The position numbers and the translations under genes are program-made. 64,000 nt of DNA from positions 1 to 64,000 of the forward strand of contig NZ_QRGP01000002.1 of the NCBI RefSeq assembly GCF_003367235.1, written 5' to 3'. Numbering within the stretch: the stretch's first letter is position 1; every line of letters starts with the position of its first letter. The notes below the pieces were generated by a model, which was not told where the DNA came from, ran no database searches, and saw only the letters and a program-made list of their open reading frames with translations. Origin of the DNA: Sphingorhabdus pulchriflava. Its GTDB lineage: Bacteria > Pseudomonadota > Alphaproteobacteria > Sphingomonadales > Sphingomonadaceae. This document shows positions 2,320-17,287 of the stretch, piece by piece.

Positions 2320-2356
2320 AGTCTACTTCTCTCGGGTACTGGAAGTTACCACGGGG

Positions 2357-3160
2357 TCAATCGCGGCATGTGCTTTTCGACACATGATCGAGAGAACTCA
2401 CATATCCATTGCGCGAAACCATCACGAGGCACTGTTTTGAGCTGCCGTTCCAGAAGGTACGGTAGCGGCCATCATCGGTGCGCTTGTCATCTCGCATCAT
2501 GAAACCGCGGCTCATCAGCTGTGATGTAGCATAATCCCGGGTCTGGCCATTGAGATCGCCCACATAGACATTGGCTGCATAGCCGCCGCTATAATGGTTG
2601 TTGTTGCGATAGCTCGTTTCATGCCCGCGCTGCTCGACACCTGCAGAAAAGCCATCTGAGTAAGCATCTGAGCGACCATAGTTGTGATAGGCATGGTTGT
2701 AGAGCCCGTCGCGATATCCACGCTCATATTCAGCTTCGCGCTGAGAGTCGTTATAATGGTTGCGGTCATTATGATGATCGGATTTGTGGCTGAGCGCGAT
2801 TGCTCCCAAAATTGCTGCTGCGCCAACGGCCACGGCAACGCCAGCATCGTTCTTGTTCGACCGCTGACCGCAATCCGATCCGCTGACCTTGTTGATCGAT
2901 TCAAACTTGCCGTCATAGGTCGTCACACTGACGCATTCCTTGGTATTGGGATTCCACCAATAGCCAATCTTGCTGTCATTTTTCGTGGTGCCATGGTGCA
3001 GGGTGAAGCCGCGATCTTCGAGGGTTGATTCCCCACCTGCCGCACGCGCGCCTACCAGATCACGCACCGAACCCGGCGTCTCCGCAAAAGCTACTGTCGA
3101 TTGCGCAATCAACGCAGCCGATGCCATCATCGTTACTGACAGTTTTCCAAAATATTTCAT
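2357..3160 (-). CDS. secreted protein with two copies of an unknown domain
   Basis: A 267-residue protein; the ATG at 3160 is preceded by GAGGGG and followed by a clear signal peptide ending AFAET. An N-terminal module (about residues 30-100) and a C-terminal module (about 205-267) resemble each other. Each has a DL-G start, an L--RGF segment, an aromatic-Asn pair (WWNPNTKEC, FWNGSSKQC) and a final Cys, so each may form one disulfide. Between them lie a short hydrophobic Ala/Gly-rich segment (VAVAVGAAAILGAIAL) and a His/Asn/Tyr-rich linker. I do not recognise the family. It is the first gene after the AraC-type element at 3236-3270, ahead of the TpsB-type transporter. Confidence 0.8.
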   Translation of the reverse strand: MKYFGKLSVTMMASAALIAQSTVAFAETPGSVRDLVGARAAGGESTLEDRGFTLHHGTTKNDSKIGYWWNPNTKECVSVTTYDGKFESINKVSGSDCGQRSNKNDAGVAVAVGAAAILGAIALSHKSDHHNDRNHYNDSQREAEYERGYRDGLYNHAYHNYGRSDAYSDGFSAGVEQRGHETSYRNNNHYSGGYAANVYVGDLNGQTRDYATSQLMSRGFMMRDDKRTDDGRYRTFWNGSSKQCLVMVSRNGYVSSLDHVSKSTCRD

Positions 3161-3235
3161 AAAATAACCCCTCAACTTTGAAACACTCGAATCTTCCCAA
3201 GCGCAGCATGGGCTGAAGCGCAATTTGTCTCAATT

Positions 3236-3270
3236 TACATTTGATGACATGGACTAGACAATTTGCGCCA
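3236..3270 (-). promoter_or_regulatory. AraC-type 21-bp direct-repeat element, site A
   Basis: Read on the + strand: TACATTTGATGACA, seven bases, then GACAATTTGCGCCA. The halves are direct repeats with a 21-bp period (two helical turns), as for araI1-araI2 type sites. The near edge is 76 bases upstream of the ATG at 3160. Sites B, C and D share sequence, orientation relative to the gene, and spacing. Confidence 0.75.
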
Positions 3271-3309
3271 TTTTTGTGCGGGAAGTGCGACAGTTGCGAA
3301 ATGTTGTAA

Positions 3310-3729
3310 CTATCTAGCGCTCACCGTCAGCGTGAAGGTCGACGCTTCGTTTCGGCGCGCAGCATTGCGCATCAGATATACGTCAATCTTATAGTCACCC
3401 GACGACGGCACTGCGCCACTATAGCTGTTGCCATCCGAAGAGCCGATGAAGAGGGCCTGATCCGCACCGGGGCCAGTTATGTTGAAGTAGTTGGATGCAT
3501 TGCTCGGGGTCAGCTTCACGGTCAGTTTCTGCCCTGCACGAATATTCACGACATAGAGTTTGGATTGGTCTCCGCGAATAGAACTCTTGATGGTCTTGGA
3601 ACTGGTTCCCTTGGCGAACTGGACGCGGGTGGGCGTTACCCCTGATTGCGCTGAAACGTTTGCTACCGGAAAGGTAACAACAGCAGCGCCTGCCAATGCA
3701 GCCAGTGCCCAAATCTTGATCTTTTTCAT
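3310..3729 (-). CDS. PliG-like inhibitor of g-type lysozyme
   Basis: A 139-residue exported protein with a signal peptide ending NVSAQ. The mature part has a KGTSSKTIKSSIRG start, RAGQKLTVKL in the middle, and SSGDYKIDVYLMRNAARR near the end. This follows the layout I remember for E. coli PliG (KGHSS..., KKGQKVHVS, ASGKYELRVLQTRNDARK), a periplasmic inhibitor of goose-type lysozyme. Length fits the family. It is the last gene of the operon led by the lipoprotein at 5282-5953, 31 bases after the CPBP protease. Assignment rests on remembered family sequence, so inhibitor activity is likely but unproven; it may bind another muramidase or another target. Confidence 0.72.
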   Translation of the reverse strand: MKKIKIWALAALAGAAVVTFPVANVSAQSGVTPTRVQFAKGTSSKTIKSSIRGDQSKLYVVNIRAGQKLTVKLTPSNASNYFNITGPGADQALFIGSSDGNSYSGAVPSSGDYKIDVYLMRNAARRNEASTFTLTVSAR

Positions 3730-3760
3730 TTCAGTCCTCCTTATGTTGATCTGCTAATTC

Positions 3761-4555
3761 TCAGACCGCATGCTGGGCGTCGCTGTCGTCGCGCCACCCC
3801 GATCGCACTTGCTCGTTACGCAACAGCCACAGTCCAAAGAGGAATATCGGGCCGATAAAGCCAATACCGCCCAGTACCGCCGATAACAGCGATGTGTGCG
3901 CCGAAGGGTCCTTCACTGCACCAAAACCAATCAGAAACACGCCAAAGTCCCATAGCCCGTGCAGAACCATCGCAACCCACAGCGATGCCGTTCGAATGCG
4001 AATGGCAAGGAATGTCAGCCCGCTCATCGTTGCAATCATTGCCTGGGTAATGGCTTCATTGAATTCGCCGGTTAGGAATGTGTTGGCGATATGGACCGAG
4101 CCGAAAAGGACGGAAACCAGGATCGCCGCTGGCCAGAAAGACATCGCCTTGCGGGCACCACCCCACAATATGCCGCGAAACGCCAGTTCCTCGCTGAAGC
4201 CGACAATCATCGTGTTGATGAACACGATTGTGATGACCGAAGCGGTCAAGCCTTCAGAATCTTTCGAAAATCCGTAAAAAACGAAACCGATTATATACAA
4301 AAGCGGCAGCCAGATAACTTTTAGCATTCCCGCGGTTTTTGGAGCTTTGAAGCCCAGATCGCGCCAGCCTGTGAACCAGACTATAATCAACAGGAATGCC
4401 GCTGCGGCGGGCGTCGCCCACAATATCTGGCTCGTCACCATTTCGGACAGGGTTACATTCCCGCTGGTCTGGATATTGCCCACGCCGATCGTGATCATCG
4501 CCCAGATCACAACGATGCCAATCGAAATCAGCAACCTGTTTGATGTTTGCTGCAT
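3761..4555 (-). CDS. CPBP-family intramembrane metalloprotease (copy 1)
   Basis: A 264-residue polytopic membrane protein. The ATG at 4555 is chosen because GGAGGGG sits just before it; an in-frame TTG four codons earlier overlaps that ribosome site. CPBP (CAAX protease and bacteriocin-processing, Abi) motif 1 is SEELAFRG near residue 121 (EExxxR). Motif 2 is FGSVHIANTF, and motif 3 is LHGLWDFG. Family members cleave substrates within the membrane, and some give bacteriocin immunity. It is only distantly like the three close paralogues at 9099, 9997 and 13179. It lies 13 bases after the membrane protein gene at 4569-5237. Confidence 0.9.
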   Translation of the reverse strand: MQQTSNRLLISIGIVVIWAMITIGVGNIQTSGNVTLSEMVTSQILWATPAAAAFLLIIVWFTGWRDLGFKAPKTAGMLKVIWLPLLYIIGFVFYGFSKDSEGLTASVITIVFINTMIVGFSEELAFRGILWGGARKAMSFWPAAILVSVLFGSVHIANTFLTGEFNEAITQAMIATMSGLTFLAIRIRTASLWVAMVLHGLWDFGVFLIGFGAVKDPSAHTSLLSAVLGGIGFIGPIFLFGLWLLRNEQVRSGWRDDSDAQHAV

Positions 4556-4568
4556 AAGCCCCTCCAAT

Positions 4569-5237
4569 TCAGATTCTTGTCAGCACGACCATCAAGGCCA
4601 AAGCCACGAAGATAAAGGCGGTGACTATGCCCATCCCGATACCCATCAGCCAGGACCGGAACATTCCGCGCTTCAGCTTTGCCTCGAACCAGAAGGCTTG
4701 TTGACGCAGATACCAATAGAGTGTGACAAACAGCAGGGCACTCGCCACATATCCACTATGCGGTGCCGCCATATGCCGGATTGTCTGGCTGAGCCCCACC
4801 ATCATCGCGACGGGTGCCGCAACAAAGCATTGGGCAAAAAAGGGCGGGCGCAGCGTATCGCGATCAAGTGGAATGTTTAATCCATTGAGCAATCGCAATG
4901 ACATCATCAACGGAAAGAGACTGAATACCAGCACCCGCAAAGCCAACAGATTTTCCGGGTTTTGCATGAAAGAAGGAAGCGCGCTCAAGTTTTCCGGCCC
5001 GGGTGCTGCGCGCTCTGCCAGATAGCTGATGCCCACGCACATCATCAGGAACAATGGTGGGCTCAGTGTATCCTTATACTGTTCCGATTGGACATCGCCC
5101 AGCTCGGTATCGGCATAGTCCATCATCCGCTGCGGATAGCGAAACGTCAGCCAGAGCGTTTTGGGAAAGAAAACCAGCGTGACGATGATTTCGTATAGAA
5201 GTTCTTCGAGCGACTTGAAGAGCTTCATAAAATCCAT
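4569..5237 (-). CDS. multi-pass membrane protein of unknown function
   Basis: A 222-residue protein with about five hydrophobic segments and an amphipathic N-terminus (MKLFKSLEELLYEIIVTLVF). The ATG at 5237 has AAGGA upstream; a second in-frame ATG three codons on is possible. The layout loosely recalls Yip1-like or DUF membrane proteins, but no signature is certain. Its position between a lipoprotein and a CPBP protease, with short gaps (44 and 13 bases), makes a shared envelope role likely, possibly as partner or substrate of the protease; this is inference. Confidence 0.75.
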   Translation of the reverse strand: MDFMKLFKSLEELLYEIIVTLVFFPKTLWLTFRYPQRMMDYADTELGDVQSEQYKDTLSPPLFLMMCVGISYLAERAAPGPENLSALPSFMQNPENLLALRVLVFSLFPLMMSLRLLNGLNIPLDRDTLRPPFFAQCFVAAPVAMMVGLSQTIRHMAAPHSGYVASALLFVTLYWYLRQQAFWFEAKLKRGMFRSWLMGIGMGIVTAFIFVALALMVVLTRI

Positions 5238-5281
5238 GCTGATACATCCTTTCCTTCAACCCATTTTTTGCGAATTCCGGA

Positions 5282-5953
5282 TCAATCCCCGATGACAAAC
5301 ACATCCGGAATTTCGTAGCGTTCCGAACCCAGCGTGGCGATTGTTGTGTCGCCGTCGCGCGTCGATCCAATTTTCATGGCGGCCGTACCATCGGCTTCGG
5401 CCGTCGAGAAAGAGAGGAACTTGCCCGACTTGTCGAACAGGATGGTGCGCTTGGTACCGTCTTTCAGTGTCACGTCGACATAGGTCCCCGTTTCGGTGTT
5501 GCGAACAACTCCGGCATCGCACATGCCCGAACCGGCACCTTTATAACCCGAACATTTGACCTGTGCGGTTGCGTTGTAATCCGTGCCAGCCACCTTGGCG
5601 TCGCCCTGGCCATCACCGTCGCCGGGTTTGGCTGCGCTCATCGGAACCGAAACGAGCGTTACGCCGTCAACCGTCCCAACGATTGCTCCACCCAATTTGG
5701 CCGCATCGTCGGCGGAAAGGCAGCCTGCCAATGTCGCACTGTCGTCGAGGTAGTTTACCGTCGCCTCGGTCTCGCCAATCTTGCGGCAAGCATCGCCCGG
5801 GTTGGGGAAGCCGTCGCCCACGACATTCAGGCTTGTCGGCCAACTCGTTGTGTCCGCCTCGGCAACTGCAGGGTTTTCCCCACCTTGCTGGCATGCCGTC
5901 AAGACCGATATAGACGTTAAAGTGGTCAAAACTGTTTTCATAGGAAGCTTCAT
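5282..5953 (-). CDS. lipoprotein of unknown function
   Basis: A 223-residue protein starting at the ATG at 5953, preceded by GGAGGG; an upstream extension of the frame lacks a ribosome site. The N-terminus has a type II signal with lipobox LTAC (residues 18-21). Mature sequence has further Cys residues (GDACRK, LAGCLS, VKCSGY, GMCDAG) that could form disulfides, and ends in a beta-rich region (TGTYVDVTLKDGTKRTILFD). No known domain is recognised. It is the first gene of the operon lipoprotein - membrane protein - CPBP protease - PliG-like, and lies about 86 bases downstream of site D. Confidence 0.8.
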   Translation of the reverse strand: MKLPMKTVLTTLTSISVLTACQQGGENPAVAEADTTSWPTSLNVVGDGFPNPGDACRKIGETEATVNYLDDSATLAGCLSADDAAKLGGAIVGTVDGVTLVSVPMSAAKPGDGDGQGDAKVAGTDYNATAQVKCSGYKGAGSGMCDAGVVRNTETGTYVDVTLKDGTKRTILFDKSGKFLSFSTAEADGTAAMKIGSTRDGDTTIATLGSERYEIPDVFVIGD

Positions 5954-6038
5954 TTTGTCACCCTCCGCGTTCGGGCTGCACGGTGCAGCGGGATATATCG
6001 CCAAGCGAACTTGCCCGATTGTAAAATCGCAGGACATC

Positions 6039-6073
6039 GACAAATGATGCCATCCGATGGACATTCGCGGCCA
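6039..6073 (-). promoter_or_regulatory. AraC-type 21-bp direct-repeat element, site D
   Basis: Read on the + strand: GACAAATGATGCCA, seven bases, GACATTCGCGGCCA. Both halves match the half-site consensus of sites A-C, and the first differs from the distal half of site B at one base. The near edge is 86 bases from the ATG at 5953. It lies between that operon and the divergent AraC-type gene at 6224. Confidence 0.65.
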
Positions 6074-6144
6074 AAGTCTGGCCAAAAAGGTCAAGTCGGT
6101 GATTGAATCCGGTTGGAAATTTCCTTGTCTGCGGAATGGCCGCC

Positions 6145-6158
6145 GATTATCAAATGTA
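6145..6158 (+). promoter_or_regulatory. lone AraC-type half-site upstream of the first regulator
   Basis: The reverse complement, TACATTTGATAATC, matches 11 of 14 bases of the proximal half of site A. It faces the regulator gene starting at 6224, 65 bases away. No second half at 21 bp is visible. It could mediate autoregulation. Confidence 0.35.
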
Positions 6159-6223
6159 AAAAACAAGGTCGCGTTCACGAGAAAACTCAAGCCCAAACTG
6201 GGCGTGGAAGCTTAGGGACGTAG

Positions 6224-7357
6224 ATGGGACTGCAGCAAAACAGAGCCGATTTTAACTCTGACCATGACGGCAGTCTTACGCCTGTAGGATCGCTTGTTGG
6301 ACATCGACCTTCGGTTGAAGCGCTGACCAATGCGTATTCGGCTATCAAAACTATGGGGCCAAAATCGCAAAGGCATGTCCCGCCTGGCGTGTTGACGCAA
6401 TTCGGAGAATGGCTCGATTGGCCCATTTGGTTCAAAAACTGTACAACGTTAGAGTCAGGGCCGGGATTGCCCGACAGAATTAGCGTAGCCGACGATCTGA
6501 TCCTTATCGCCAATGTAGTAGACCACGGCTGTGCCTTGGAATTATTGTCGCGGCTGGCAGGTGAAACAAAAATTGCCGGCGCTCCAGTGGTCGCACCGGC
6601 GCTGTATAATGCGCCCAGTTTGTTTGATGCCTTATTGCTCGCCAAAAGATCGACAGAGGCGAGCACGCCCTATGTTAAAATGCGATTCCAGACCGAAGAG
6701 CATCAATTTTCCATTGTGATCGAGAGCGAAATTGAAAATGGGCCGTTGTTGGAATTTGCCGCAACCGCCTATTTGTGCACTTTACAACGCTTTGTGGGTT
6801 TTTTCCTCCCCGACGCGGTTGGCGAAATCGAGTTTAGAACCGTGGCCAACAAACGGCAGAATCCTTCCAGTTTTTTACTCGGCTTGCCTGGCATCAAGTT
6901 GTTTGGCGCTGATGTTTATTCAATTGTGGGAAAGGCCGAGTGGCTTAAAGCCAAGAACTCTCAAACCGATCCGGCATTCTGGAATTTCGCGCTCGACCGC
7001 GTGGCGCTACTAGAACGTGATTGTGGCCGGTCGGAAGTTGTGGACCGAATTCGCGCCGTTATTCGCACGACGATGGAGGCCGAACACCGTGTGCCCCGAT
7101 TGAAACAGGTCGCAGCAGGCGAACGCGTCTCCGAAAGGACTTTGGTACGAATTCTGGCTGCCCACGGCACAAGCTTTCACAAGATTGTTGAAGAAGAGCG
7201 GCGGCTGATTGCGTCTCAGATTATTGGAAATACATCCATCAGCCTTGCCGAAGTCGCCAAATCGTTAGGGTTCACCGATATGTCAAGTTTTGGGCGGTCG
7301 TTCCGACAATGGTACGGTATGACTCCGAGGCAAGCCCGGCTTTGGCGAACGGATTGA
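6224..7357 (+). CDS. AraC-family transcriptional regulator (first of two paralogues)
   Basis: A 377-residue protein with an N-terminal region of the type found in AraC regulators of the Arabinose_bd group (LPDRISVADDLILIANVVDHG, about residues 82-102) and a C-terminal double HTH. The second HTH has the family signature VAKSLGFTDMSSFGRSFRQWYGMTP, seen in pieces near residues 340-365. Length and much of the sequence match the regulator at 15686-16819, for example LKQ.AA...VSERT.. in both. It is divergent from the operon behind site D and precedes the L,D-transpeptidase gene by 72 bases. I infer that it, its paralogue, or both read the 21-bp direct repeats at sites A-D. Confidence 0.92.
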   Translation: MGLQQNRADFNSDHDGSLTPVGSLVGHRPSVEALTNAYSAIKTMGPKSQRHVPPGVLTQFGEWLDWPIWFKNCTTLESGPGLPDRISVADDLILIANVVDHGCALELLSRLAGETKIAGAPVVAPALYNAPSLFDALLLAKRSTEASTPYVKMRFQTEEHQFSIVIESEIENGPLLEFAATAYLCTLQRFVGFFLPDAVGEIEFRTVANKRQNPSSFLLGLPGIKLFGADVYSIVGKAEWLKAKNSQTDPAFWNFALDRVALLERDCGRSEVVDRIRAVIRTTMEAEHRVPRLKQVAAGERVSERTLVRILAAHGTSFHKIVEEERRLIASQIIGNTSISLAEVAKSLGFTDMSSFGRSFRQWYGMTPRQARLWRTD

Positions 7358-7429
7358 TCAGATGGCCTCACATTGCGCGTGTTTTGTAGCAAGCAATTGG
7401 GCCAAATAATCGACCTAGGGAGGGTAGCA

Positions 7430-8425
7430 TTGAAACCACTGAAATTGGGTTTGGCGTTGCTCTTGGTTGCATCAACGCAACCCGTTCTCGCTCAAGGCTC
7501 CACCGTGAGTTCTGCTATCGAACTCGCGCGGCAGGCCGAAAAGTTGAAGCCCGGCCAATGGGTGTGGGCTCCGCAAATCGCACCAGTTGGTCCGATAACC
7601 GTTTATGTCGATCTGTCGCGACAGGCGGCAACGGTTTACCGCAATGGCGTGCGCATTGGCGTATCGACGGTATCATCGGGTAAGCCCGGGCATGAAACAC
7701 CAACGGGTGTATTCACCATCCTGCAAAAGGATGCGCATCACCGTTCCAGCACCTACAACAATGCTCCTATGCCGTATCAGGAGAGGCTGACCTGGGATGG
7801 CGTCGCGCTGCACGCCGGTGGCTTGCCGGGTTATCCCGAAAGCCATGGCTGCGTGCATCTGCCCTTCGAGTTCGCCAAATTGCTATTTGGTGAGACCCAT
7901 ATGGGCGGGACGGTGATTATGGCTGGTCGCGCAGGTAATCCGTCACTCACCCACGCGGCCGGGGTGCTAGCCGCGCAGGGCGAAAAAGGCACGGGCATCG
8001 AACATGTCCCGCTTGGCAGCGACGAAAGCTATCGCTGGACGCCGGAAGTTTCGCCAAGTGGACCAATGTCGATCATCATATCGCACAGCGACCAGAGGGT
8101 GGTGGTGCTGCGCAACGGGCAGGAAATTGGCCGCGCTCGGGCCGTGCTGCCGGACAATGATTTCGAGACGCATGTGCTGACCTATGCGAAGCTTCCTAAC
8201 GGCAACTCGCGCTGGGTGTTCGCCGGTGTTCCTGGCCATGATGGCGAAAAGGGGCAGCCGCTCGACTCTTCTATCTTGAACCAGTTGCGGCTGCCGGAAA
8301 AATTCCTGCATTCGCTCAATGCCGTCATCGAACCCGGCACCACGATATTGGTGACGCAAGCTCCCGTTTTGCCGCACAACAGCGGCAAGCAAATGACCGT
8401 ACTATCTGCGGTTAAAAAGCGCTGA
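7430..8425 (+). CDS. L,D-transpeptidase (YkuD domain) with a degenerate second copy
   Basis: A 331-residue exported protein starting at TTG 7430, nine bases after GGGAGGG, giving a signal peptide LGLALLLVASTQPVLAQ. No ATG gives a better start. The YkuD domain (about residues 45-165) has the catalytic motif HAGGLPGYPESHGCVHLP with His and Cys. Such enzymes form 3-3 peptidoglycan cross-links or attach proteins to the wall. The C-terminal half repeats the domain start (WTPEVSPSGP... VLRNGQEIG against WAPQIAPVGP... VYRNGVRIG) but has no SHGC motif. It lies 72 bases after the AraC-type gene and may be read through from it. The LprI-like gene follows after 11 bases. Confidence 0.9.
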   Translation: MKPLKLGLALLLVASTQPVLAQGSTVSSAIELARQAEKLKPGQWVWAPQIAPVGPITVYVDLSRQAATVYRNGVRIGVSTVSSGKPGHETPTGVFTILQKDAHHRSSTYNNAPMPYQERLTWDGVALHAGGLPGYPESHGCVHLPFEFAKLLFGETHMGGTVIMAGRAGNPSLTHAAGVLAAQGEKGTGIEHVPLGSDESYRWTPEVSPSGPMSIIISHSDQRVVVLRNGQEIGRARAVLPDNDFETHVLTYAKLPNGNSRWVFAGVPGHDGEKGQPLDSSILNQLRLPEKFLHSLNAVIEPGTTILVTQAPVLPHNSGKQMTVLSAVKKR

Positions 8426-8436
8426 GGAGCAAAGCC

Positions 8437-9045
8437 ATGAAACATGCCTTGGCAATTTGCACCGGAACTTTGGGACTTGTTCTTGGCGAGACAGCGGCGC
8501 TCCACGCCGTGCCGCCGCCGCCCGAACAATATAGTACCGATTGCGCACGATCGGTTTACGCTTCCGACCAGCTTGTATGCCAAACGCCGGAACTGAAGGC
8601 GCTAGACAGTGCGTTAGCTGCCCAGATTACAGCCGCAGATAGTGCGCCATTTGCGAGCGGCAACCGTTTCACCGAGGGCCATGGAGAATGGTTTCGCAGA
8701 CGCAGCATGTGTGCAATGCAGACCGACCATCTGTCCTGCCTGCGGGCGGCCTATGCCGATCGACAGCGATTGATCGAGCGGCTAGGCAAGCCATTACCGG
8801 CGGCTGACCAGAGATTCATTTGCCGCTTAACGAGCAATGGAACCAGTGTGCTGCTATCGTTTATGAGCCCGGCTGAGGTGATCATTGCCAATGAGGCCGG
8901 CCTGGTTGTCGGCGTCGCGTCGAACGCCAAGCCGATATCGGGATGGCGTCCGTTTCTGACCTTCCAGAAGAAACGCAGCAGCCTGATTCTGACTGACGCT
9001 CAAGATGCTTCGATCAGTTGCAAGCTGACTCGATTTAAGCCTTGA
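8437..9045 (+). CDS. exported LprI-like (DUF1311) protein
   Basis: A 202-residue protein with a signal peptide; the ATG at 8437 follows GAGGAGC. The N-terminal half has the DUF1311/LprI cysteine pattern: DCARS, LVCQTPELKALDSALAAQ, then MCAMQTDHLSCLRAAYADR. In Mycobacterium LprI this family is reported to inhibit lysozyme. The C-terminal half starts RFICRLTSNG and ends SCKL and might be a small beta barrel resembling MliC-type inhibitors; that is weak. It is 11 bases after the L,D-transpeptidase gene and convergent with the CPBP gene at 9099. A role in protecting or sensing peptidoglycan fits the context but is inferred. Confidence 0.75.
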   Translation: MKHALAICTGTLGLVLGETAALHAVPPPPEQYSTDCARSVYASDQLVCQTPELKALDSALAAQITAADSAPFASGNRFTEGHGEWFRRRSMCAMQTDHLSCLRAAYADRQRLIERLGKPLPAADQRFICRLTSNGTSVLLSFMSPAEVIIANEAGLVVGVASNAKPISGWRPFLTFQKKRSSLILTDAQDASISCKLTRFKP

Positions 9046-9055
9046 GCGTCAGTGT

Positions 9056-9089
9056 AGCGCCACATCTTGCAACGGCAGGATGTGGCGCT
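9056..9089. terminator. hairpin between convergent genes, probable bidirectional terminator
   Basis: Perfect 11-bp arms AGCGCCACATC (9056-9066) and GATGTGGCGCT (9079-9089) with a 12-base loop, between the ends of the LprI-like gene and the CPBP gene. There is no U-run on either side, so termination is inferred from position. Confidence 0.55.
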
Positions 9090-9098
9090 GTCATGCAA

Positions 9099-9968
9099 TC
9101 AGCTGGATGACTTCTGCCAGAAGGGCGGCACGATATTGCCTTTACGGACTGCCATCACCAACAGGATCACACCCGTAGTTGTGCACAGCAGAAACGCGGT
9201 CAGCGAGGCTTCGAGTCCGAACTGCCCTCCTGTCAACAGGTCGGGACCGTTGAGGATTGGTTTGATCAGACCAGGCTCGGCGATTCCGCCCGATACGATT
9301 CCCCCAAAGACTGCCGATTGCGTATAGTTCCAAGACACGTGGAAGCCGATGCTCATCCATAAGCGGCGCGTCACCATATAGGCCGCAGCAAGCAGTAAAC
9401 CTGCCTCAACGCTGATAAACAGCGCGCCTATGAGCGTCGCGTCAGGATTGGCGAGATGAACAAGGCCAAACACAGCTGAGGAAATGATAATCGAAATCCA
9501 GCTTCCCAGCCATTCCTCCACAATCCGGAATAAGGCGCCGCGGAACAACAATTCTTCGAGGAAGCCGGAGCTGAGTGCCGAAGCGATCGCCGGAACCAAG
9601 AAGGAAACCGGATTGAAACCGTCCATTCGGTAAATACCCATGGCCATCAAAATCAGCATGCAGCCCGTATATAAGCCTGACCCAATCAATATTCCGACAC
9701 CCATTTCTTTCACCATGCCGGGAAGCGCGAGCTCGCTGACTTCGCGGCGCTCTACCCATCGGGCAAAGCCGAAGTAAATTGCCATGGCCAAAGCGATCAT
9801 AGCCACTGCCGCGACTGTGGAGGGCAGCGTTGCCCCCTTATTCTCCGACATGAACAGGTTACTGAAACCGATGCAGTAGAATAACATCCCACCCAGCAGC
9901 AGCAATTTGACGGGTGGGAATTGCAGGATTCGTAGCCACAAAGGCGTTGTCGAGGCTTGTCCGTTCAT
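9099..9968 (-). CDS. CPBP-family intramembrane metalloprotease (copy 2)
   Basis: A 289-residue protein with about eight membrane segments. Motifs: EELLFRG near residue 138, FGLVHLANP near 166, and GFHVSWNYTQ near 207, supplying the Glu, His and His/Asn residues expected of CPBP proteases. The ATG at 9968 follows GGGAAGG. Very similar to the copies at 13179-14051 (shared VERR.VSEL, GVG, GSGLYT, LIKP..., CTTTGV) and 9997-10881, so these are recent paralogues. It is the third gene after the M1 aminopeptidase (28-base gap to copy 3). The C-terminus GNIVPPFWQ is shared with copy 3. Substrate unknown. Confidence 0.92.
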   Translation of the reverse strand: MNGQASTTPLWLRILQFPPVKLLLLGGMLFYCIGFSNLFMSENKGATLPSTVAAVAMIALAMAIYFGFARWVERREVSELALPGMVKEMGVGILIGSGLYTGCMLILMAMGIYRMDGFNPVSFLVPAIASALSSGFLEELLFRGALFRIVEEWLGSWISIIISSAVFGLVHLANPDATLIGALFISVEAGLLLAAAYMVTRRLWMSIGFHVSWNYTQSAVFGGIVSGGIAEPGLIKPILNGPDLLTGGQFGLEASLTAFLLCTTTGVILLVMAVRKGNIVPPFWQKSSS

Positions 9969-9996
9969 GTCTGTTTACCTTCCCCTTTGTTTGCCA

Positions 9997-10881
9997 TTAG
10001 GTTGAAGTCAGTTGCCAGAAGGGCGGCACGATATTGCCCTTCCGCTTCGCCATCACGATCATGATGATGCCGGCAGTCGAACACACCAAAAAGGCAACCA
10101 GCGAAGCTTCGACTCCGAAGCTGCCGCCTGTGAGGTAATCAGGCCCCTCCATCGACGATTTGGCAAATCCGCTCATTTCGCCATTGCCCGAAACGATGCC
10201 TGAATAGACAGTACCTTGTGTGTAGTTCCATGCCGAGTGCAGGCCAATCCCGAACCACAATCGGCCCGTCAGCATATAGGTTGCAGCAAGCAGGACGCCA
10301 GCCCAGATGGTGATCGAGATTATACCCTGCATGGTCGAACCCTCATTCCCCATATGGACGTAGCCGAACACCAACGCGTTGATGACAATCGCGATCCAGC
10401 TGCCGAACCATATTTGTGCAAGACGGAACACGCCGCCGCGAAAGAGCAGTTCTTCAAAGAAACCTGTGGCCAATGGCGCTGCAAGACCAACAAGGAGGAT
10501 TTTGGGATCGTTGAAACCCTCAAGGCGATAGACACCGAGCAGCATCAATATGATGATGCAAAGGCTATAGAGGCCGAAACCCAGGGCAAACCCCAATCCA
10601 AATTCGCTGAGCATCGGCCGCACCGCGACTTCGGGCACATCGCGTTTTTCGATATGCTCGGAAAGACTGCGGTAAACCAGCACCATCACGATGCAGCCTA
10701 AGGCGGATGCAAGAATGGGTGCGACGGGTCCGGGCGCGATTGCTTCCACATAGGACGTGCGCATGAAGTACAGACCGACATAGCAATAGGTCAGTATGAC
10801 GTAGAGGATGCCGTAAAAGACCAAGGGAAATTTCATGATCCTCTGCAGCAGCGAAAGACTTGATACAGTTTCCCCGTTCAT
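9997..10881 (-). CDS. CPBP-family intramembrane metalloprotease (copy 3)
   Basis: A 294-residue polytopic protein with EELLFRGG, FGYVHMGNEG and GLHSAWNYTQ motifs, intact for metal binding. It is a paralogue of copies 2 and 4 but has diverged more in its first 90 residues. The ATG at 10881 follows AAGGGAAAAAGC. It lies 31 bases after the M1 aminopeptidase gene and 28 before copy 2, so aminopeptidase and two proteases probably share the transcript starting near site C. This pairing suggests peptide products released by intramembrane cleavage are trimmed outside the cytoplasm; that is inference. Confidence 0.9.
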   Translation of the reverse strand: MNGETVSSLSLLQRIMKFPLVFYGILYVILTYCYVGLYFMRTSYVEAIAPGPVAPILASALGCIVMVLVYRSLSEHIEKRDVPEVAVRPMLSEFGLGFALGFGLYSLCIIILMLLGVYRLEGFNDPKILLVGLAAPLATGFFEELLFRGGVFRLAQIWFGSWIAIVINALVFGYVHMGNEGSTMQGIISITIWAGVLLAATYMLTGRLWFGIGLHSAWNYTQGTVYSGIVSGNGEMSGFAKSSMEGPDYLTGGSFGVEASLVAFLVCSTAGIIMIVMAKRKGNIVPPFWQLTST

Positions 10882-10912
10882 TGCTTTTTCCCTTGCTAAT
10901 CAATGATCCAAT

Positions 10913-12952
10913 TCATTTTCCGCTGGCAGATACTCCCTGCTTCCACACATTGTCTGACGGATAGAAATCGACAAAAATGCCGCTGTCGACCGACACCGAT
11001 TGCAGGGCTTTCGATGAGGAGACAGCCACTGTGGTTGAACGCGGTGTCTCTTTCCAGACCACGGGCGACCGGTGCACCTGTTCGTTGCTGCCATCGGCAT
11101 AGTTCAGCACGACATCGAACGGCATCGCCATGCCGCCTTTGTTGCGGACTTCCACGACATGCTGCCCGTTTTCGCTGCGCACCGAAGCTATGCCGATATC
11201 CATATGGTTGTAACTGAAAAACCAGTTGTTGAAGAACCAGTTATGGTTGCCGACACCAGCATTGTTGAAGCTGTTGAACATATCCCACGGCAATGGACGC
11301 TTGCCATGCCAGCGCCCCATAAATTCATGCAGTGCCTTTTTGAACGCCGCATTGCCCATTAAGTCTTTCAGCGCCAGATAGCCAAGCGCTGCCTTTCCAT
11401 ATTGGTTGAAGCCAAAGACCGGGGCTTGTCCGTACATCGTATCATGCGGTGTAATGATGGGCAGTTCGTTGCCCGATGTGGCGCTCGGCCAACCGGCCCG
11501 AACGACGCGCATATCCTTGAATAGTCGATCCGCGCTTTCCTTCCCAAGGACTTCGACATTTCGCAGATATTCAAAAGCTGTAGTCCAGCCTTCATCCATG
11601 AATGGATAGCGCTTCTCGTTGATACCCATGTAAAAGGGAAACCAACTATGCAGAATTTCGTGCGTTGCCACAAATCCGGTGAAGGCATTTTCCGGATATT
11701 CAGCGGCTTCCTTATTGCCGACGTTCGAGTCATCGTTGACCATCATCGGATATTCCTCATCCGCGCTGCCCAGCACGATTGTGGACTTGGGCCAAGGATA
11801 AGGAATTCCCGGGTATTTGGTCGAAGCGAATTGCATTGCTTGACGCCCGGTTTCGACCATCGGTTTGAAATCGGTCGCACTGTCTGGATAAGCTGCTTGA
11901 ACCGATGTACGGCGCCCCGTGGACGGGTCGACAACCACGCTGGAGGCCTGCCAGCGATAATGGTTGCTCACCGCAATGGCAAAGTCAGGCACATGTGAAG
12001 CTTGCCATTTCCAGCTAAGCCGTTCGGCGCGGGTGGTAATTCTGCCAGCCTGAACATCGGCTGCCTCTGCCAGCGTTACGACCTTGTCGCTGGATTGACT
12101 GGATTTCAGGCTCGCCGCAACTTTAGGTTGCAGCACCTCTGCGGGATTCTGCAAATCACCGGTAGCCCAAACGACAAAATCGCGCGGGGCGTTTACTTCG
12201 ACATTGAAGTCGGCAAAATCATTGTTGAATTCGCGGCCGGTTGTGAATGGGCTGTAGTCCCAACCGTTATAGTCGCTGTAATTGGTTATGCGGGGGTAAA
12301 AATAGGCCAGAAAATAGCTAGTTTCGTCAAGCGAGCCCTCCTTCCATCCGCCATCAGCTGTGAGTTCATAGTTCCAGCGCATCTTAATGCGCACACTGCC
12401 TTTCGGCGGCAACGGCTTTTCCAAGGCAATGCCGTGGACTGTGCTGCCTGGCTGGTTGATCGACGCTAACGGATTTGCCGGATCGTTCCATGGCATCGCT
12501 TTCCCGTCGATACTAAATTCTTCGACTGTAATACCTTTGTTGAGGAACTGGGTTGGATAAAGCCGGTCACGCATTGCCTCTGGCTGATGGGCGTTCAGAT
12601 ACATGCGAAAAATGAGGACCGGCAGCATGTCAGGGCTGTTGTTGGTATAAATGATTTCCTGCTCACCCTCGATACGCTTGCTCGGCGGCGACACAGTGAT
12701 ACGCATATTGTGCGTCGAATGGTTTTGCCAATAGTTAGGCCCAGGCTTGCCGTCGCGGCTGCGCGTGCCCTTGTCGTACGTCGCCTGAATGTCGCGAGGA
12801 ACATAAAGTTCGTCACTCGATTGCTCGTCAGAGATTTGCCAAGGTGGCGAGGAAGGCGATTGCGCGCTGTCATCGGCAGCTAATGCGCCCGACGATAATG
12901 CCAAGGCGCAAATCAAACCAGTAAGCCTGCCAGCCGTACGCACTGTCCGCAT
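10913..12952 (-). CDS. exported M1-family zinc aminopeptidase
   Basis: A 679-residue protein with a signal peptide ending SGALA. The ATG at 12952 is preceded by GGAGG five bases away; a GTG four codons upstream would overlap that site. Zinc motif HEILH at residues 431-435 with Glu454 (MDEGW) 19 residues on fits the HExxH-x18-E pattern of the M1 gluzincins, and the N-terminal beta domain (QEIIYTNNSPDMLPVL...) is typical. The exact GAMEN exopeptidase motif is not obvious, so endo- or exopeptidase action is open. First gene of the operon with CPBP copies 3 and 2, 81 bases downstream of site C. A decayed relative lies at 16880-17287. Confidence 0.9.
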   Translation of the reverse strand: MRTVRTAGRLTGLICALALSSGALAADDSAQSPSSPPWQISDEQSSDELYVPRDIQATYDKGTRSRDGKPGPNYWQNHSTHNMRITVSPPSKRIEGEQEIIYTNNSPDMLPVLIFRMYLNAHQPEAMRDRLYPTQFLNKGITVEEFSIDGKAMPWNDPANPLASINQPGSTVHGIALEKPLPPKGSVRIKMRWNYELTADGGWKEGSLDETSYFLAYFYPRITNYSDYNGWDYSPFTTGREFNNDFADFNVEVNAPRDFVVWATGDLQNPAEVLQPKVAASLKSSQSSDKVVTLAEAADVQAGRITTRAERLSWKWQASHVPDFAIAVSNHYRWQASSVVVDPSTGRRTSVQAAYPDSATDFKPMVETGRQAMQFASTKYPGIPYPWPKSTIVLGSADEEYPMMVNDDSNVGNKEAAEYPENAFTGFVATHEILHSWFPFYMGINEKRYPFMDEGWTTAFEYLRNVEVLGKESADRLFKDMRVVRAGWPSATSGNELPIITPHDTMYGQAPVFGFNQYGKAALGYLALKDLMGNAAFKKALHEFMGRWHGKRPLPWDMFNSFNNAGVGNHNWFFNNWFFSYNHMDIGIASVRSENGQHVVEVRNKGGMAMPFDVVLNYADGSNEQVHRSPVVWKETPRSTTVAVSSSKALQSVSVDSGIFVDFYPSDNVWKQGVSASGK

Positions 12953-13032
12953 AAAGTCCTCCACCCCAAACAGAGTCCTAAGTTACAATTCGATACGCGA
13001 ACTATGGGTGATGCCGTGCAGCGCGACCATAG

Positions 13033-13067
13033 TACATTTGGCGACAAGCTTTGGACATTAGATGCCA
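13033..13067 (-). promoter_or_regulatory. AraC-type 21-bp direct-repeat element, site C
   Basis: Read on the + strand: TACATTTGGCGACA, seven bases, GACATTAGATGCCA. The near edge is 81 bases upstream of the M1 aminopeptidase ATG at 12952. Eleven of the first 14 bases are identical in sites A, B and C. Confidence 0.72.
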
Positions 13068-13178
13068 AAAATGCCGGATTTTGACCAACTCACAGCGCGC
13101 TTCACCCAAATAAAGACTGCGGAATGTGACGATCAATTTGGCGCTTGCCTGCTTGCAAGTTTGATCGCGCGTCGAGTC

Positions 13179-14051
13179 CTAGTCCGACCTATTGCGGCCG
13201 AGTAATGGCACCAAATTGCCGCGCCGGATTGCCAATAACAGCAGCACAACGCCTGTGGTCGTGCATAAAAGGAATGCGATGAACGAGGATTCAAGCCCAA
13301 AGCTGCCACCAGTCAACCATTCAGGCCCCTCGATAACCGGTTTGATCAGCCCGGGGTCGCTTTCGCCGCCCGAAACAATACCGGAAAAAATCCCTTCCTG
13401 CGTGTAATTCCAGGAAAAATGGAATCCGATGCTCATCCACAGGCGGCGCGTGACCATATAGGCGGCGGCCAGCAGGACACCTGCCTCGATCGTAATGAAT
13501 ATTGCCCCCTGGAGCGTTCCCTGCGGGTTTAACAGGTGCATGAAACCGAAGAGAAGCGAGGAGATGGCAAGCGCCAACCAGCTGCCCAATGCTTCCTCTG
13601 TGATGCGGAACAGCACGCCGCGAAAAAGCAACTCTTCAAAAATGCTCGAACTGATGGCCATGGGCAGTGCAGTCAGCATGAACAAGGCAGGATTGAACCC
13701 CTCTATCCTATAGATACCGAGCAGCATGAGTATGAGGACGCATGTGGTATACAGGCCGGAGCCGACCAGTACGCCAACCCCCAATTCCTTACCCATGCCC
13801 GATAGCGACAATTCGCTGACCTTGCGCCGTTCGACAAAGCGGACAAAGCCGACATAGATTAAGGCCGCCAACCCGGCCATGCCGATGACAACGCCGAGCG
13901 ATTTCAACAGATCATCCGCAACACGCGCGCGAAAGCCATTGGTCACGCCCATCAAAACAAAGATGATGCCGCCCAATATAATCAGGCGGACCAGCGGAAA
14001 TTGCGCAATGCGAAGCAGAATTGACGGTTTCTGGTAGGCAGCTTGGTCCAT
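13179..14051 (-). CDS. CPBP-family intramembrane metalloprotease (copy 4)
   Basis: A 290-residue polytopic protein closest to copy 2. Motifs EELLFRGVLFR, FGFMHLLNP and GFHFSWNYTQ are intact. The ATG at 14051 follows AAAGGATTGAAC; an in-frame TTG at 14057 lies inside that site. It is the last gene of the operon behind site B, after the CPBP-like protein at 14692 and the secreted protein at 14137. The C-terminus differs from copies 2 and 3 (GNLVPLLGRNRSD), suggesting the tail is not essential for catalysis. Confidence 0.92.
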   Translation of the reverse strand: MDQAAYQKPSILLRIAQFPLVRLIILGGIIFVLMGVTNGFRARVADDLLKSLGVVIGMAGLAALIYVGFVRFVERRKVSELSLSGMGKELGVGVLVGSGLYTTCVLILMLLGIYRIEGFNPALFMLTALPMAISSSIFEELLFRGVLFRITEEALGSWLALAISSLLFGFMHLLNPQGTLQGAIFITIEAGVLLAAAYMVTRRLWMSIGFHFSWNYTQEGIFSGIVSGGESDPGLIKPVIEGPEWLTGGSFGLESSFIAFLLCTTTGVVLLLLAIRRGNLVPLLGRNRSD

Positions 14052-14136
14052 GTTCAATCCTTTGCTGGCTGCGCAAGGGCGGCCTGATCACTCACCCGGT
14101 AAGTCGCACCCGGCGCCCGGCGCCGGGTGCTGAAGG

Positions 14137-14661
14137 TCAAAACCGGTTGCGGACATCGCCCCATTCGCCCGCGTCACATTCGCCGCGGAATTTTTCGATG
14201 CCATCGATCTTAATCCGGCCCGTGCGGCGATTGATCTCGACCTTTGGCTTGTTCGCGCCGTTCAGGCGATAGCGGGCAGTGATCCGATCGCTGGTGAAGC
14301 GCACGTTGGTCAAATCCCACCAACCTCTGCGACCTCCACTATGAATCGGCGGAATCATGCGACCGGTAAGATGGATGCGACCCAATCCGTCATGAAATTC
14401 GAGCTGAACCTCTGAATCAAACTCTTGTGTGCCCGATTCAATCCGTCCGCGATACTCATAACGATCTCGGCGCGGGTTCCATTCATAGCCGTTGCGATAT
14501 TGCGTTCCGGGTTTGCGCCCTTCGCCCCAGCAAATCAGTGTCAGATTGGTGTCGCCATTGTCATCGCCATAATATTGCGACTGCGCCGCGCTCGGCAGGC
14601 CGACGGCAACCGCAGTTGCCAACACTGAAACGATCCCCAGCATCGTCCGTTTGATCATCAT
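14137..14661 (-). CDS. secreted basic beta-rich protein of unknown function
   Basis: A 174-residue protein with tandem start codons at 14661 and 14658 after GGAAGGAAA, and a signal peptide ending SAAQS. The mature part is rich in Arg, Gly and aromatic residues (TLICWGEGRKP, GGRRGWWDLTNV, RRTGRIKIDGIEKFRGEC) with two Cys residues near its ends that could pair. No family is recognised. It sits between two CPBP genes in the operon behind site B, so it is a candidate secreted effector, inhibitor or protease partner; that is inference from position. Confidence 0.72.
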   Translation of the reverse strand: MMIKRTMLGIVSVLATAVAVGLPSAAQSQYYGDDNGDTNLTLICWGEGRKPGTQYRNGYEWNPRRDRYEYRGRIESGTQEFDSEVQLEFHDGLGRIHLTGRMIPPIHSGGRRGWWDLTNVRFTSDRITARYRLNGANKPKVEINRRTGRIKIDGIEKFRGECDAGEWGDVRNRF

Positions 14662-14691
14662 CCATTTCCTTCCGTGTTTAGTGAGACTTGG

Positions 14692-15450
14692 TTATTGCGC
14701 TGTCGCCAGTCCGGCGCCGAGCACATTCATGGTGAACAGTGTCCAGTCGTTGAGCACATGTGCGCCTGTGCTCACCCAGATATTCTTGCTGCGGATATAG
14801 GCGAGTGTCAGCACCAACCGAGCGCCTCCAATAACCACAAGGCACTGGATCCAGTTCCATTGATAGGTCGGCAAATGCACCAGCGCGAAGGGGATTGCCG
14901 ACAAAATCCATGCGGCGATGATCGCTTTGTTCCGCGATAATTTGCCATGGCGAAAAAGCAGATACAGGATTGCAAGGAAGGGAAGGATGGAAATCAATTC
15001 TTCGCCGAAAAGTTGCAGCCCAGTTTTCAGATAGTAGAGGAAGGCGTCGGCCTGGCTGAGGTTGGCAATATCGGCCACTGCGCTATTGGAGACGACGCCG
15101 AAAAACTTCATGACAAGCATGCCGATCGCCATCGAAACCAAAATGTTCAGCGCAGCGTAGCCGAACATCTGCTTGATCTCGCGACCGCCAACTTTACGGA
15201 AAATCGCCTTCCAGTCTTGCGGTGCGACGATCGCAAGTCCGGCCAATGGAAGGGCAAAAAACAATATGGCCGGTACAAACTGTCCCCATGTGCCGCCAGG
15301 CCATGCTATTTTGGCGGTCAGCAGCGCAAAGCCTGCGGCCGCCATAGCGATGACAAACAGCCATTTGACACCTGAAATCGTGATTGGCAGGCCGTTGTAA
15401 TAGGGAAAATCATCGTCGCCGCGCTCAAAAACCGGAATTCGGTCGCTCAT
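14692..15450 (-). CDS. CPBP-like membrane protein lacking the motif-1 arginine (copy 5)
   Basis: A 252-residue polytopic protein. The CPBP pattern is recognisable: GEELISILPFL (about residue 157), ALVHLPTYQW (about 197) and GAHVLNDW (about 233). The usual Arg of EExxxR is missing, because EELISI replaces EELxFR, while both Glu and the His residues remain. It is either a divergent active subgroup or a non-catalytic member. The ATG at 15450 is preceded by a G-rich site. First gene of the operon behind site B (70 bases) and divergent from the AraC-type gene at 15686. Confidence 0.78.
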   Translation of the reverse strand: MSDRIPVFERGDDDFPYYNGLPITISGVKWLFVIAMAAAGFALLTAKIAWPGGTWGQFVPAILFFALPLAGLAIVAPQDWKAIFRKVGGREIKQMFGYAALNILVSMAIGMLVMKFFGVVSNSAVADIANLSQADAFLYYLKTGLQLFGEELISILPFLAILYLLFRHGKLSRNKAIIAAWILSAIPFALVHLPTYQWNWIQCLVVIGGARLVLTLAYIRSKNIWVSTGAHVLNDWTLFTMNVLGAGLATAQ

Positions 15451-15519
15451 AAATGCCCCCCGGAACCGTCCTGTTCAGTTCTGACAATGAGTGGGGTCAT
15501 TCAACGTAGAAACACAATT

Positions 15520-15554
15520 TACATTTGCTGACACATAGTGGACAAATGGTGCCA
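15520..15554 (-). promoter_or_regulatory. AraC-type 21-bp direct-repeat element, site B
   Basis: Read on the + strand: TACATTTGCTGACA, seven bases, GACAAATGGTGCCA. The first half, with five bases before it (CAATT), is identical to site A except at one position. The near edge is 70 bases upstream of the ATG at 15450, and the element lies 131 bases upstream of the divergent AraC-type gene at 15686. Confidence 0.75.
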
Positions 15555-15685: not shown

Positions 15686-16819
15686 ATGGAGCACATTGAG
15701 GTTGAAAGAGCTGTCTCAACCATTGGCAACCGGACTTTAGCCGGCAGCAATGTAGAAGGCTTAGCAGACGGACGAAGTTCGGCTCGGGATGATGCAAGAG
15801 CAACGATTATCGCTCTTGGCCATGCTGCCAAAAAGATGGTGTTGACTGGACAACTGAGACATTTTGCAGAGTTGTGCGATAGGGCGGATTGGCTGTTTGA
15901 CGGCACTTCGTTTCAAAATACCGAGCTGCTTCCTGATCGCATCAGCGTGGAAGCCGACCTCACAATAATGGCGAATATGCTGGATCATGGATATTCAGCC
16001 ACAATGATTTCGCAGTTGGTCAGCCTTTTCGGTGTAATCAACGGGCCGATAAGCGCGATGGGTCTCGTGACCGCACCAACGCTGGCAGACGCGCTGCATA
16101 TATTAAGAAGGATAATTGTGGTAAATAATCCACATGTAGAAATAGATATAAATCCAATAGATGATGAATTCGAAATTATTTTCAGATCATGTGCACCACC
16201 GGGAATTTTTCGTGAATTTTATACATTATCAATTTTTGCTGTAATGGCGCATGTTATCATTCGTTTTGTTCCGAAATCACAAAATGTTTTGCGGTTCGAA
16301 CTCGATTTTGAACCTGAATCTGGAATCGTCGAAGCAATAGGGATATTGTCCCGGGATATTAAATCGGGCGTGGCATCGACCCGGATAATTGGCCAAAGCA
16401 ACTGGCTCAGCCTGCCTAACGTCACCTTCGATCGTTCATTTTGGGAGCTATCTCTCGACCGCGTCCAAAACCTGGAGTCTGACAGTGAAGTCCCAAATAT
16501 CGAGCAACGGGTCCGCCGATACATAAAAACCGCGCTGGTTCAGGAAAAACGCGTTCCGAGATTGAAACAAATTGCGGCGTTGGAAGGCGTTTCCGAACGG
16601 ACCATGTTGCGCATGCTAGCGGAAAACGACCTTAGCTTTCACATCATTTCCGAAGATGTAAGGCGGGTAATGGCGACGGAGATGATCAGCCTGCCGTCAG
16701 TTCCGCTGTCAGAGATTTCCGAATCCCTCGGCTTTACCGATCTTTCGAGCTTCAGTCGTTCATTCCGGAAATGGTTTGGCGCAACCCCGGGCCAGTATCG
16801 GAAATCTCAGGAACGTTAG
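15686..16819 (+). CDS. AraC-family transcriptional regulator (second paralogue)
   Basis: A 377-residue protein, the same length as the regulator at 6224, with matching blocks: LPDRISVEADLTIMANMLDHG in the N-terminal region, RVPRLKQIAALEGVSERT, and SLGFTDLSSFSRSFRKWFGA in the C-terminal HTH. The ATG at 15686 has AAGGG nine bases upstream. Bases 16100-16270 are AT-richer than the surroundings. It is divergent from the operon behind site B, mirroring the arrangement of the first regulator and site D. The N-terminal ligand region differs more between the two than the DNA-binding part, so they may respond to different signals at the same sites (inference). Confidence 0.92.
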   Translation: MEHIEVERAVSTIGNRTLAGSNVEGLADGRSSARDDARATIIALGHAAKKMVLTGQLRHFAELCDRADWLFDGTSFQNTELLPDRISVEADLTIMANMLDHGYSATMISQLVSLFGVINGPISAMGLVTAPTLADALHILRRIIVVNNPHVEIDINPIDDEFEIIFRSCAPPGIFREFYTLSIFAVMAHVIIRFVPKSQNVLRFELDFEPESGIVEAIGILSRDIKSGVASTRIIGQSNWLSLPNVTFDRSFWELSLDRVQNLESDSEVPNIEQRVRRYIKTALVQEKRVPRLKQIAALEGVSERTMLRMLAENDLSFHIISEDVRRVMATEMISLPSVPLSEISESLGFTDLSSFSRSFRKWFGATPGQYRKSQER

Positions 16820-16879: not shown

Positions 16880-17287
16880 TTAGTTATTGATCTGGATAGT
16901 TTGAACGCCACCTTTGTTGTGACCCTCATCTAGCCCGACGCCTGCATCGTTGCAGCGGTTGAATATACCTCATTGCAAAGGCTACATTCCGTGCTGGCGT
17001 TCCATGAAGGTGTGCAGCACCTTCTTGAATGTGGCACCGCCTATCACGTGCCTGAGTATCAGATGGCTGGGTATTGCTCTGCCATATTGGTTGAATGGGA
17101 ATGCCGGAGTCTGACCATACAGCGAACCACAGGGTACAATGTCATGCTTGTGAGCCTCGCTGTCAGTCCCCAACGTCGTGAATGTCTCGGATACTTCCTT
17201 AGCCACTGGACTTCCCCACCAAACGAAGCATTGGTTGCAACGCGCATAGCGTTGTCGATGACGCGCCGCACACCTGACCATCCCCAA
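16880..17287 (-). pseudogene. decayed M1 aminopeptidase fragment
   Basis: Minus-strand translation of about 16980-17170 (SLYGQTPAFPFNQYGRAIP and FKKVLHTFMERQHG) aligns with the M1 enzyme at 10913 (TMYGQAPVFGFNQYGKAAL, FKKALHEFMGRWHG). In the same frame, past a TAG and a TGA, GIFN.CNDAGVG and HNKGG match DMFNSFNNAGVG and RNKGG of the intact protein with the intervening residues deleted. The zinc-site region is absent. The fragment ends close to the recombinase module that starts at 17352. The limits are approximate. Confidence 0.8.

Follow-up and report, generated by a model that had tools for sequence, protein, structure and literature searches.

Why do four operons at one end of a bacterial contig carry the same 35-bp direct repeat, in the same orientation and at nearly the same distance from their first start codon? 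The question is raised by the first 64 kb of contig C2 (NZ_QRGP01000002.1) in the 3.22-Mb genome of Sphingorhabdus pulchriflava, a stretch that we refer to as the window. Its first 17 kb comprise four minus-strand operons and two plus-strand genes for AraC-type regulators, AraC1 and AraC2. We consider it probable that the four elements are operators of AraC-type activators and define a single envelope-protection regulon.

A direct repeat shared by four operons

The original prediction described four 35-bp elements facing the same way, each with its near edge 70–86 bases upstream of a start codon. All four lie where they had been placed, on the minus strand; measured from the near edge, the ATG begins at a distance of 76 for A, 70 for B, 81 for C, and 86 for D. 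The two AraC genes are indeed divergent from sites D and B.

Site A: 3236-3270, minus strand, two half-sites with a 21-bp period, upstream of operon A
Site D: 6039-6073, minus strand, upstream of operon D and divergent from AraC1
Site C: 13033-13067, minus strand, upstream of operon C
Site B: 15520-15554, minus strand, upstream of operon B and divergent from AraC2
AraC1: 6224..7357, plus strand, AraC-type regulator and candidate activator (Pfam HTH_18, E 2.5e-15)
AraC2: 15686..16819, plus strand, AraC-type regulator and candidate activator (Pfam HTH_18, E 1.2e-14)

The pattern TGKCNNMNWWTGTM-N7-TGKCNNMNWWTGTM has four matches in the window, even when up to three mismatches are allowed, against a mean of 0.10 in shuffled sequence, with no shuffle reaching four. 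A scan for single half-sites found none scoring above 12.6 in the window beyond the eight already known. The two repeated half-sites and their 21-bp period were as predicted, but the 14-bp length of the unit was not. In an alignment of 29 elements, six from this genome and 23 from relatives (22 before cassette genes plus that of locus L054), position 16, the second base of the spacer as first drawn, is A in all 29, and the equivalent base after the second half (+2) is A in 25. The half-site is therefore about 16 bp long and reads TGKCRNSAWWTGTCNA.

The whole genome has six exact matches. Four are the sites of the window, and the other two belong to a second cassette copy, on contig C1. The element is shared across operons, as proposed, but the set is not purely local. 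The next-best matches carry two mismatches. With at most one mismatch, the true pattern is found six times and the reversed pattern never; with up to three, the counts are 12 and five, so loose matches mean little. The two C1 sites, A' and D', are 2.8 kb apart and precede a paralogous copy of operons D and A, adjoining a third AraC gene that is 73% identical to AraC1.

C1 cassette copy: L013 7908-16851, genes for AraC, LP223, TM222, CPBP, PliG, Slp268, ShlB, and the repeat protein, plus two exact elements

We extended the search to 298 genomes drawn evenly from the family, the own genome included. The exact pattern is absent from all 297 others, and exact matches occur at cassette promoters only, which answers the concern that the motif might hit equally often at random positions. 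One-mismatch matches outside the own genome number 12, spread over 11 genomes, and the reversed pattern gives two matches at this stringency in the 298 genomes. Four of the 11 genomes were examined: G255 and G003 have a distant AraC homologue within ~1 kb of the site, and in G180 and G196 no AraC homologue was found at the site. The one-mismatch element of G255 (L044 4785-4819) directly adjoins its AraC homologue, which is more distant (31% over 190 residues), and points towards a different gene; operators of this type may be in use by other AraC proteins as well.

Conservation in relatives and promoter geometry

Homologues of AraC1 at E 1e-30 or better are found in six of the 298 family genomes, the own one included. 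A single-protein search of genome contigs with AraC gave no matches; a profile search with the AraC alignment recovered at least 14 relatives (L048-L061), of which 13 matched over most of their length and one, L060, is cut by a contig end. Records of Sphingomonas, Blastomonas, Novosphingobium, Porphyrobacter, Erythrobacter, and Sandarakinorhabdus are among the matches listed, as are two metagenome-assembled genomes otherwise labelled; some of these relatives are the same genomes as in the AraC1 search. Together with L041 (genome G227), they make a set of 15 loci, 272 kb in all, which was scanned with a matrix derived solely from the four sites of the window, requiring at least 2 bits in both halves and a sum of at least 15.

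This matrix yields 28 paired hits at a period of 21 bp, against zero to six at each of 17 other periods between 15 and 32, the arrangement expected of AraC-type operators with direct half-sites about 21 bp apart. Twenty-two hits are upstream of a cassette gene, and one, in L054, lies where the contig stops before the gene; the remaining five comprise three hits that were not assigned, one that is a true site read in a shifted register, and one in L041. Counting L054, the element is present in 13 of the 15 loci with an AraC of this type. In L060, the contig begins inside the AraC gene.

Sites A and D both have orthologous sites preceding the same gene in relatives, in addition to their paralogues A' and D'. 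For site B, L049 also has an element before the homologue of CPBPe, and for site C no orthologous site was seen in the relatives examined. Across ten promoter pairs, hand-picked and in some cases drawn from one locus, 251 of 280 half-site bases are identical (90%), compared to 160 of 400 (40%) in the 40 bases upstream. Along the same lines, 26 of 28 half-site bases agree between A and A', against 13 of 40 bases upstream, and D and D' have flanking DNA in common as well. The element is thus retained before orthologous operons despite diverged flanking DNA.

A complementary control asked after loci without this regulator. Homologues of Slp268, the first product of operon A, are found in 60 of the 298 genomes and those of TM222 (operon D) in 46; the AraC is far rarer. 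From the 54 genomes with an Slp268 homologue but no AraC match at E 1e-30, the 40 better-scoring ones were chosen, and the DNA upstream of the homologue, mostly in 900-bp stretches, was scored with a matrix trained on the 29 sites. None of the 40 scores in the range of the real sites (27.2-42.2); the best reaches 17.3 (L196, perhaps a decayed site) and the next 10.9. With the window-only matrix, the best place in each of these loci, as so found, scores at most 12.9. As a control for a link between the element and the AraC, this is suggestive, if not stringent.

The DNA downstream of the element is also conserved, as C26-A27-nnn-T31. In 23 of 29 promoters (four of six own, 19 of 23 from relatives), a box of the form xAnnnT starts 26 bp beyond the element, compared to a maximum of nine in 5000 shuffles, and G is found at +5 in 24 of 29. 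A 17-bp spacer would put the -35 hexamer at +3 to +8, where T/A-K-G is enriched. With the first base of the -10 box taken as -12, the element would extend from about -72 to about -38. It abuts the predicted -35 and therefore occupies the position of an AraC-type activator; judged from the predicted boxes, the proximal half-site is at or next to the -35, and the -10 box keeps a fixed phase.

Several observations weigh against the interpretation of the elements as activator sites of one regulon. The 29 sites were picked from hits before cassette genes, so half-site conservation partly reflects selection, which does not apply to the -10 box or the invariant spacer A. Among the own promoters, a -10-like box is exactly at +26 in four of six; that of C is at +27, and B has none that is clear. 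L041 has homologues of AraC, Slp268, and LP223 and no element before its cassette genes, which lie some kilobases from the AraC gene. The Novosphingobium loci L056, L058, and L059 have the site 228-338 bp upstream of the start of Slp268, compared to 50-110 bp usually found elsewhere. In 65 control loci with other AraC genes (1.19 Mb), the matrix gave 18 hits at period 21 against five to eight at four other periods; its weak end may detect AraC sites in general. The control with AraC-less genomes is weakened in that many of their Slp268 homologues may be paralogues.

Candidate regulators and rival explanations

AraC1 and AraC2 score 57 and 54.7 bits against HTH_18 (cut-off 33.6), which places both in the AraC/XylS class. 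They share 35% with each other, and their second HTH regions, DMSSFGRSFRQW and DLSSFSRSFRKW, are very similar; because these regions are near-alike, overlapping specificity is likely. In a tree, AraC2 stands apart on a long branch, without support. The G+C content of AraC2 is 47.9%, compared to 53-60% in eight other stretches of the window. A model of AraC1 (pLDDT 80) has CdpR as its best structural match (E 2.8e-11), and its N-terminal part matches an N-terminal fragment of VirS (E 2.1e-3). The likeness to CdpR of Pseudomonas aeruginosa and VirS of Mycobacterium tuberculosis is one of fold, with low whole-chain TM-scores (0.36). The label PF12625 (Arabinose_bd) for the N-terminal domain was dropped, as the scores of 17.8 and 18.2 bits fall below the cut-off of 27.6.

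AraC of Escherichia coli binds araI1-araI2 at araBAD, direct half-sites of ~17 bp spaced 21 bp apart. The elements described here resemble this arrangement in having paired direct half-sites at 21-bp spacing, but differ in half-site sequence, in the N-terminal domain of the regulator, and in the presence of several paralogous regulators; relative to the AraC sites, they would also end a few bp further upstream, and no distal looping operator is seen in the window. At araBAD, the proximal AraC site recruits RNA polymerase (PMC4760080).

Another point of comparison is GliR (PA3027) of P. aeruginosa, a distant relative. GliR is divergent from its target operon of glycerolipid genes, one motif is located at the -35, and motif A from ChIP-seq is YYGGCGHTDTYSGMC, with sites such as CTGGCGCTATTCGCC (PMC8151288). 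GliR is likewise of AraC type and divergent from its target, and YYGGCGHTDTYSGMC resembles TGGCGYSAWWTGTC of our half-site; it differs in having two motifs, and the term direct repeat does not occur in the text consulted (PMC8151288). The GliR profile matches AraC1 at E 1.3e-17, but AraC1 and AraC2 score 64.2 and 61.8 bits, far from the NCBIfam equivalog cut-off of 570. Similarly, both regulators score best against the NCBIfam profile QhpR (E 1.2e-28 and 1.5e-33), yet their 100.2 and 116.2 bits stay below its cut-off of 250; no paper on QhpR with AraC was found in the openly licensed PMC literature. Taken together, the HTH domains, the similar second helices, the period of 21 bp, and the likeness to the GliR motif favor the AraC-type assignment made in the original prediction, as far as sequence comparison goes.

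The elements might instead be operators of another regulator encoded elsewhere, with the AraC genes as bystanders. The role of the AraC proteins is putative, and homologues of Slp268 and TM222 occur without these AraC genes, where other regulators may act. We nevertheless regard this explanation as very improbable: the element tracks the AraC (13 of 15 loci with it, none of 40 without), tandem half-sites at 21 bp beside the -35 are the AraC layout, and the half-site resembles the motif of an AraC relative, GliR. Fainter still is the chance that the promoters are alike merely as recent duplicates, without regulatory meaning. The cassette has been duplicated, as the 73% identity between AraC1 and its C1 copy indicates, CPBPb, CPBPc, and CPBPd are 43-59% alike, and D and D' share their flanks, but the half-sites have been kept far better than the DNA upstream of them, both in the ten promoter pairs and between A and A'. 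Moreover, the element stands before unlike first genes (Slp268, LP223, the M1 peptidase, and CPBPe) and is kept in other genera.

The sign of the control is a further issue. The regulators could repress instead of activating, or repress without ligand as AraC does by looping: AraC itself does both (PMC7499043), and the element and the divergent regulator gene are only 132-151 bp apart. Repression seems improbable, since an element upstream of and next to the -35, a start site left free, and a poor -10 box fit activation, and no second operator was found in the window. We return to activation, which would work as follows. The operators would most likely serve three paralogues, namely AraC1, AraC2, and the C1 copy. 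A dimer of the regulator would contact both 16-bp direct half-sites from the same side of the helix. The subunit nearer the promoter would sit against the -35 hexamer and recruit RNA polymerase to a weak promoter, with a -10 box that is conserved but poor (CANNNT). The six promoters of the genome would in this way be switched on jointly. On comparative grounds, which are good, the system is best described as a predicted new AraC-type regulon, not a new mechanism.

Operon products and a putative role at the envelope

The limits of the putative operons were read from gene order and spacing. Operon A would start at 3160 with Slp268, followed by a ShlB-type outer-membrane protein and then a Pro/Gln-rich repeat protein. 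Operon D (5953 to 3310) comprises LP223, TM222, CPBPa, and a PliG-type inhibitor. In operon C (12952 to 9099), the gene of an M1-type peptidase precedes those of CPBPc and CPBPb, and in operon B (15450 to 13179), CPBPe and CPBPd flank the secreted protein S174.

Slp268: 2360..3160, minus strand, first gene of operon A, secreted, two related domains
ShlB/FhaC-type outer-membrane protein: 739..2319, minus strand, second gene of operon A (Pfam ShlB, E 6e-09)
Pro/Gln-rich tandem repeat protein: 1-720, operon A, runs off the contig end
LP223: 5282..5953, minus strand, first gene of operon D, two-module lipoprotein
TM222: 4569..5237, minus strand, operon D, membrane protein, no family found in profile searches
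CPBPa: 3761..4555, minus strand, operon D, CPBP/Rce1-like intramembrane protease (Pfam Rce1-like, E 2.3e-17)
PliG-type inhibitor of g-type lysozyme: 3310..3729, minus strand, last gene of operon D (PDB 4dzg, E 4e-18)
M1-family peptidase: 10913..12952, minus strand, first gene of operon C (Pfam Peptidase_M1, E 6.6e-10)
CPBPc: 9997..10881, minus strand, operon C (Pfam, E 2.3e-18)
CPBPb: 9099..9968, minus strand, operon C (Pfam, E 1.8e-20)
CPBPe: 14692..15450, minus strand, first gene of operon B, CPBP/Rce1-like (Pfam, E 4.3e-10)
S174: 14137..14661, minus strand, operon B, secreted protein, no family found in profile searches
CPBPd: 13179..14051, minus strand, operon B (Pfam, E 1.6e-19)

All five CPBP proteins exceed the PF02517 cut-off, and four of them have EExxFR, the motif of CPBP/Rce1-like proteases; a search for it in CPBPe found none. 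The product of 3310-3729 matches four solved PliG-type chains and so belongs to this family by sequence, which makes it a predicted lysozyme inhibitor. In its N-terminal module, LP223 matches chain T (‘Secreted protein’) of PDB 9lti (E 1.3e-21); a search of the openly licensed PMC literature did not identify that complex. Modules of the C-terminal type of LP223 also occur in fusion with other domains, a PliG-like one in L049 (6136-6879; L038 is this same DNA) and META in L056 (6958-7752), L058 (6775-7641), and L059 (6553-7425). Slp268 has a homologue in 13 of the 15 relative loci, the exceptions, L054 and L060, being short or cut contigs; its model has a pLDDT of 64 and no structural match at E 0.001. 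A faint similarity to PASTA (PknB, E 0.027) was set aside. Gene content was scanned in 14 other loci, namely the C1 copy and 13 relatives: all have LP223-like and Slp268-like genes, nine have TM222, and seven have PliG. The absence of PliG from the other seven counts against a response to lysozyme alone, and lysozyme defence is therefore not the whole story.

From this inventory, we infer an inducible envelope-protection response, in which the products (a lysozyme inhibitor, five CPBP-type proteins, an M1-type peptidase, lipoproteins, and secreted proteins) would shield the envelope from wall-degrading enzymes or peptides. CPBP proteins act as bacteriocin self-immunity factors. The main competing account of function is accordingly a regulon for peptide bacteriocin immunity or peptide processing, instead of defence against lysozyme or wall hydrolases, with which five CPBP/Rce1-like genes, an M1-type peptidase, and the loci lacking PliG would agree. 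We consider it possible, if on balance unlikely, given PliG in operon D and in half of the other loci scanned, the C1 copy among them, and the fusions of the LP223-type module to a PliG-like domain and, in the three Novosphingobium loci, to META. As for the signal of the envelope-protection response, a tentative suggestion, to which we give a rather low probability, is that an AraC with a CdpR/VirS-like sensor domain detects damage by wall enzymes, or a freed lipid or wall fragment, and turns on lysozyme inhibitors, membrane proteases, and lipoproteins. If true, this would be a dedicated inducible anti-lysozyme or anti-predation response, patchily distributed through the order.

A few further features deserve mention. 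The repeat-protein gene cut by the contig end at 1-720 has an open-frame counterpart on C1 (L013 15268-16851). An LprI-like label considered for the product of 8437-9045 found no support in profile and family searches. Over 51 residues, a minus-strand fragment at 16982-17287 shares 53% identity with the operon C peptidase of M1 type, and by sequence is a remnant of a second copy of that gene. Nearby is a large open reading frame (17971-19632) that we take to encode a serine recombinase, a hint of mobile-element activity where the cassette ends. Against a plasmid collection, the stretch 2300-7400 matched once, over a short segment amounting to 4%.

PliG is a periplasmic inhibitor of g-type lysozyme; its counterpart here, recognized by sequence match, closes operon D, which an AraC-type element precedes. 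Among the papers listed from the openly licensed PMC literature, judged by title and the opening of the abstract, neither an AraC-controlled PliG nor an AraC regulon of the CPBP/PliG/META kind was found. What emerges is a complete and testable regulatory unit in environmental Sphingomonadales, consisting of an operator, its promoter geometry, candidate activators, and six target promoters. The element is kept in loci of Blastomonas, Sphingomonas, Novosphingobium, Erythrobacter, Porphyrobacter, and Sandarakinorhabdus, and the alignment offers a usable predicted binding model for an uncharacterised AraC subgroup. For the biology of these bacteria, the predicted shared control places a lysozyme-inhibitor gene in one group with several CPBP proteins and with lipoproteins that are uncharacterised.

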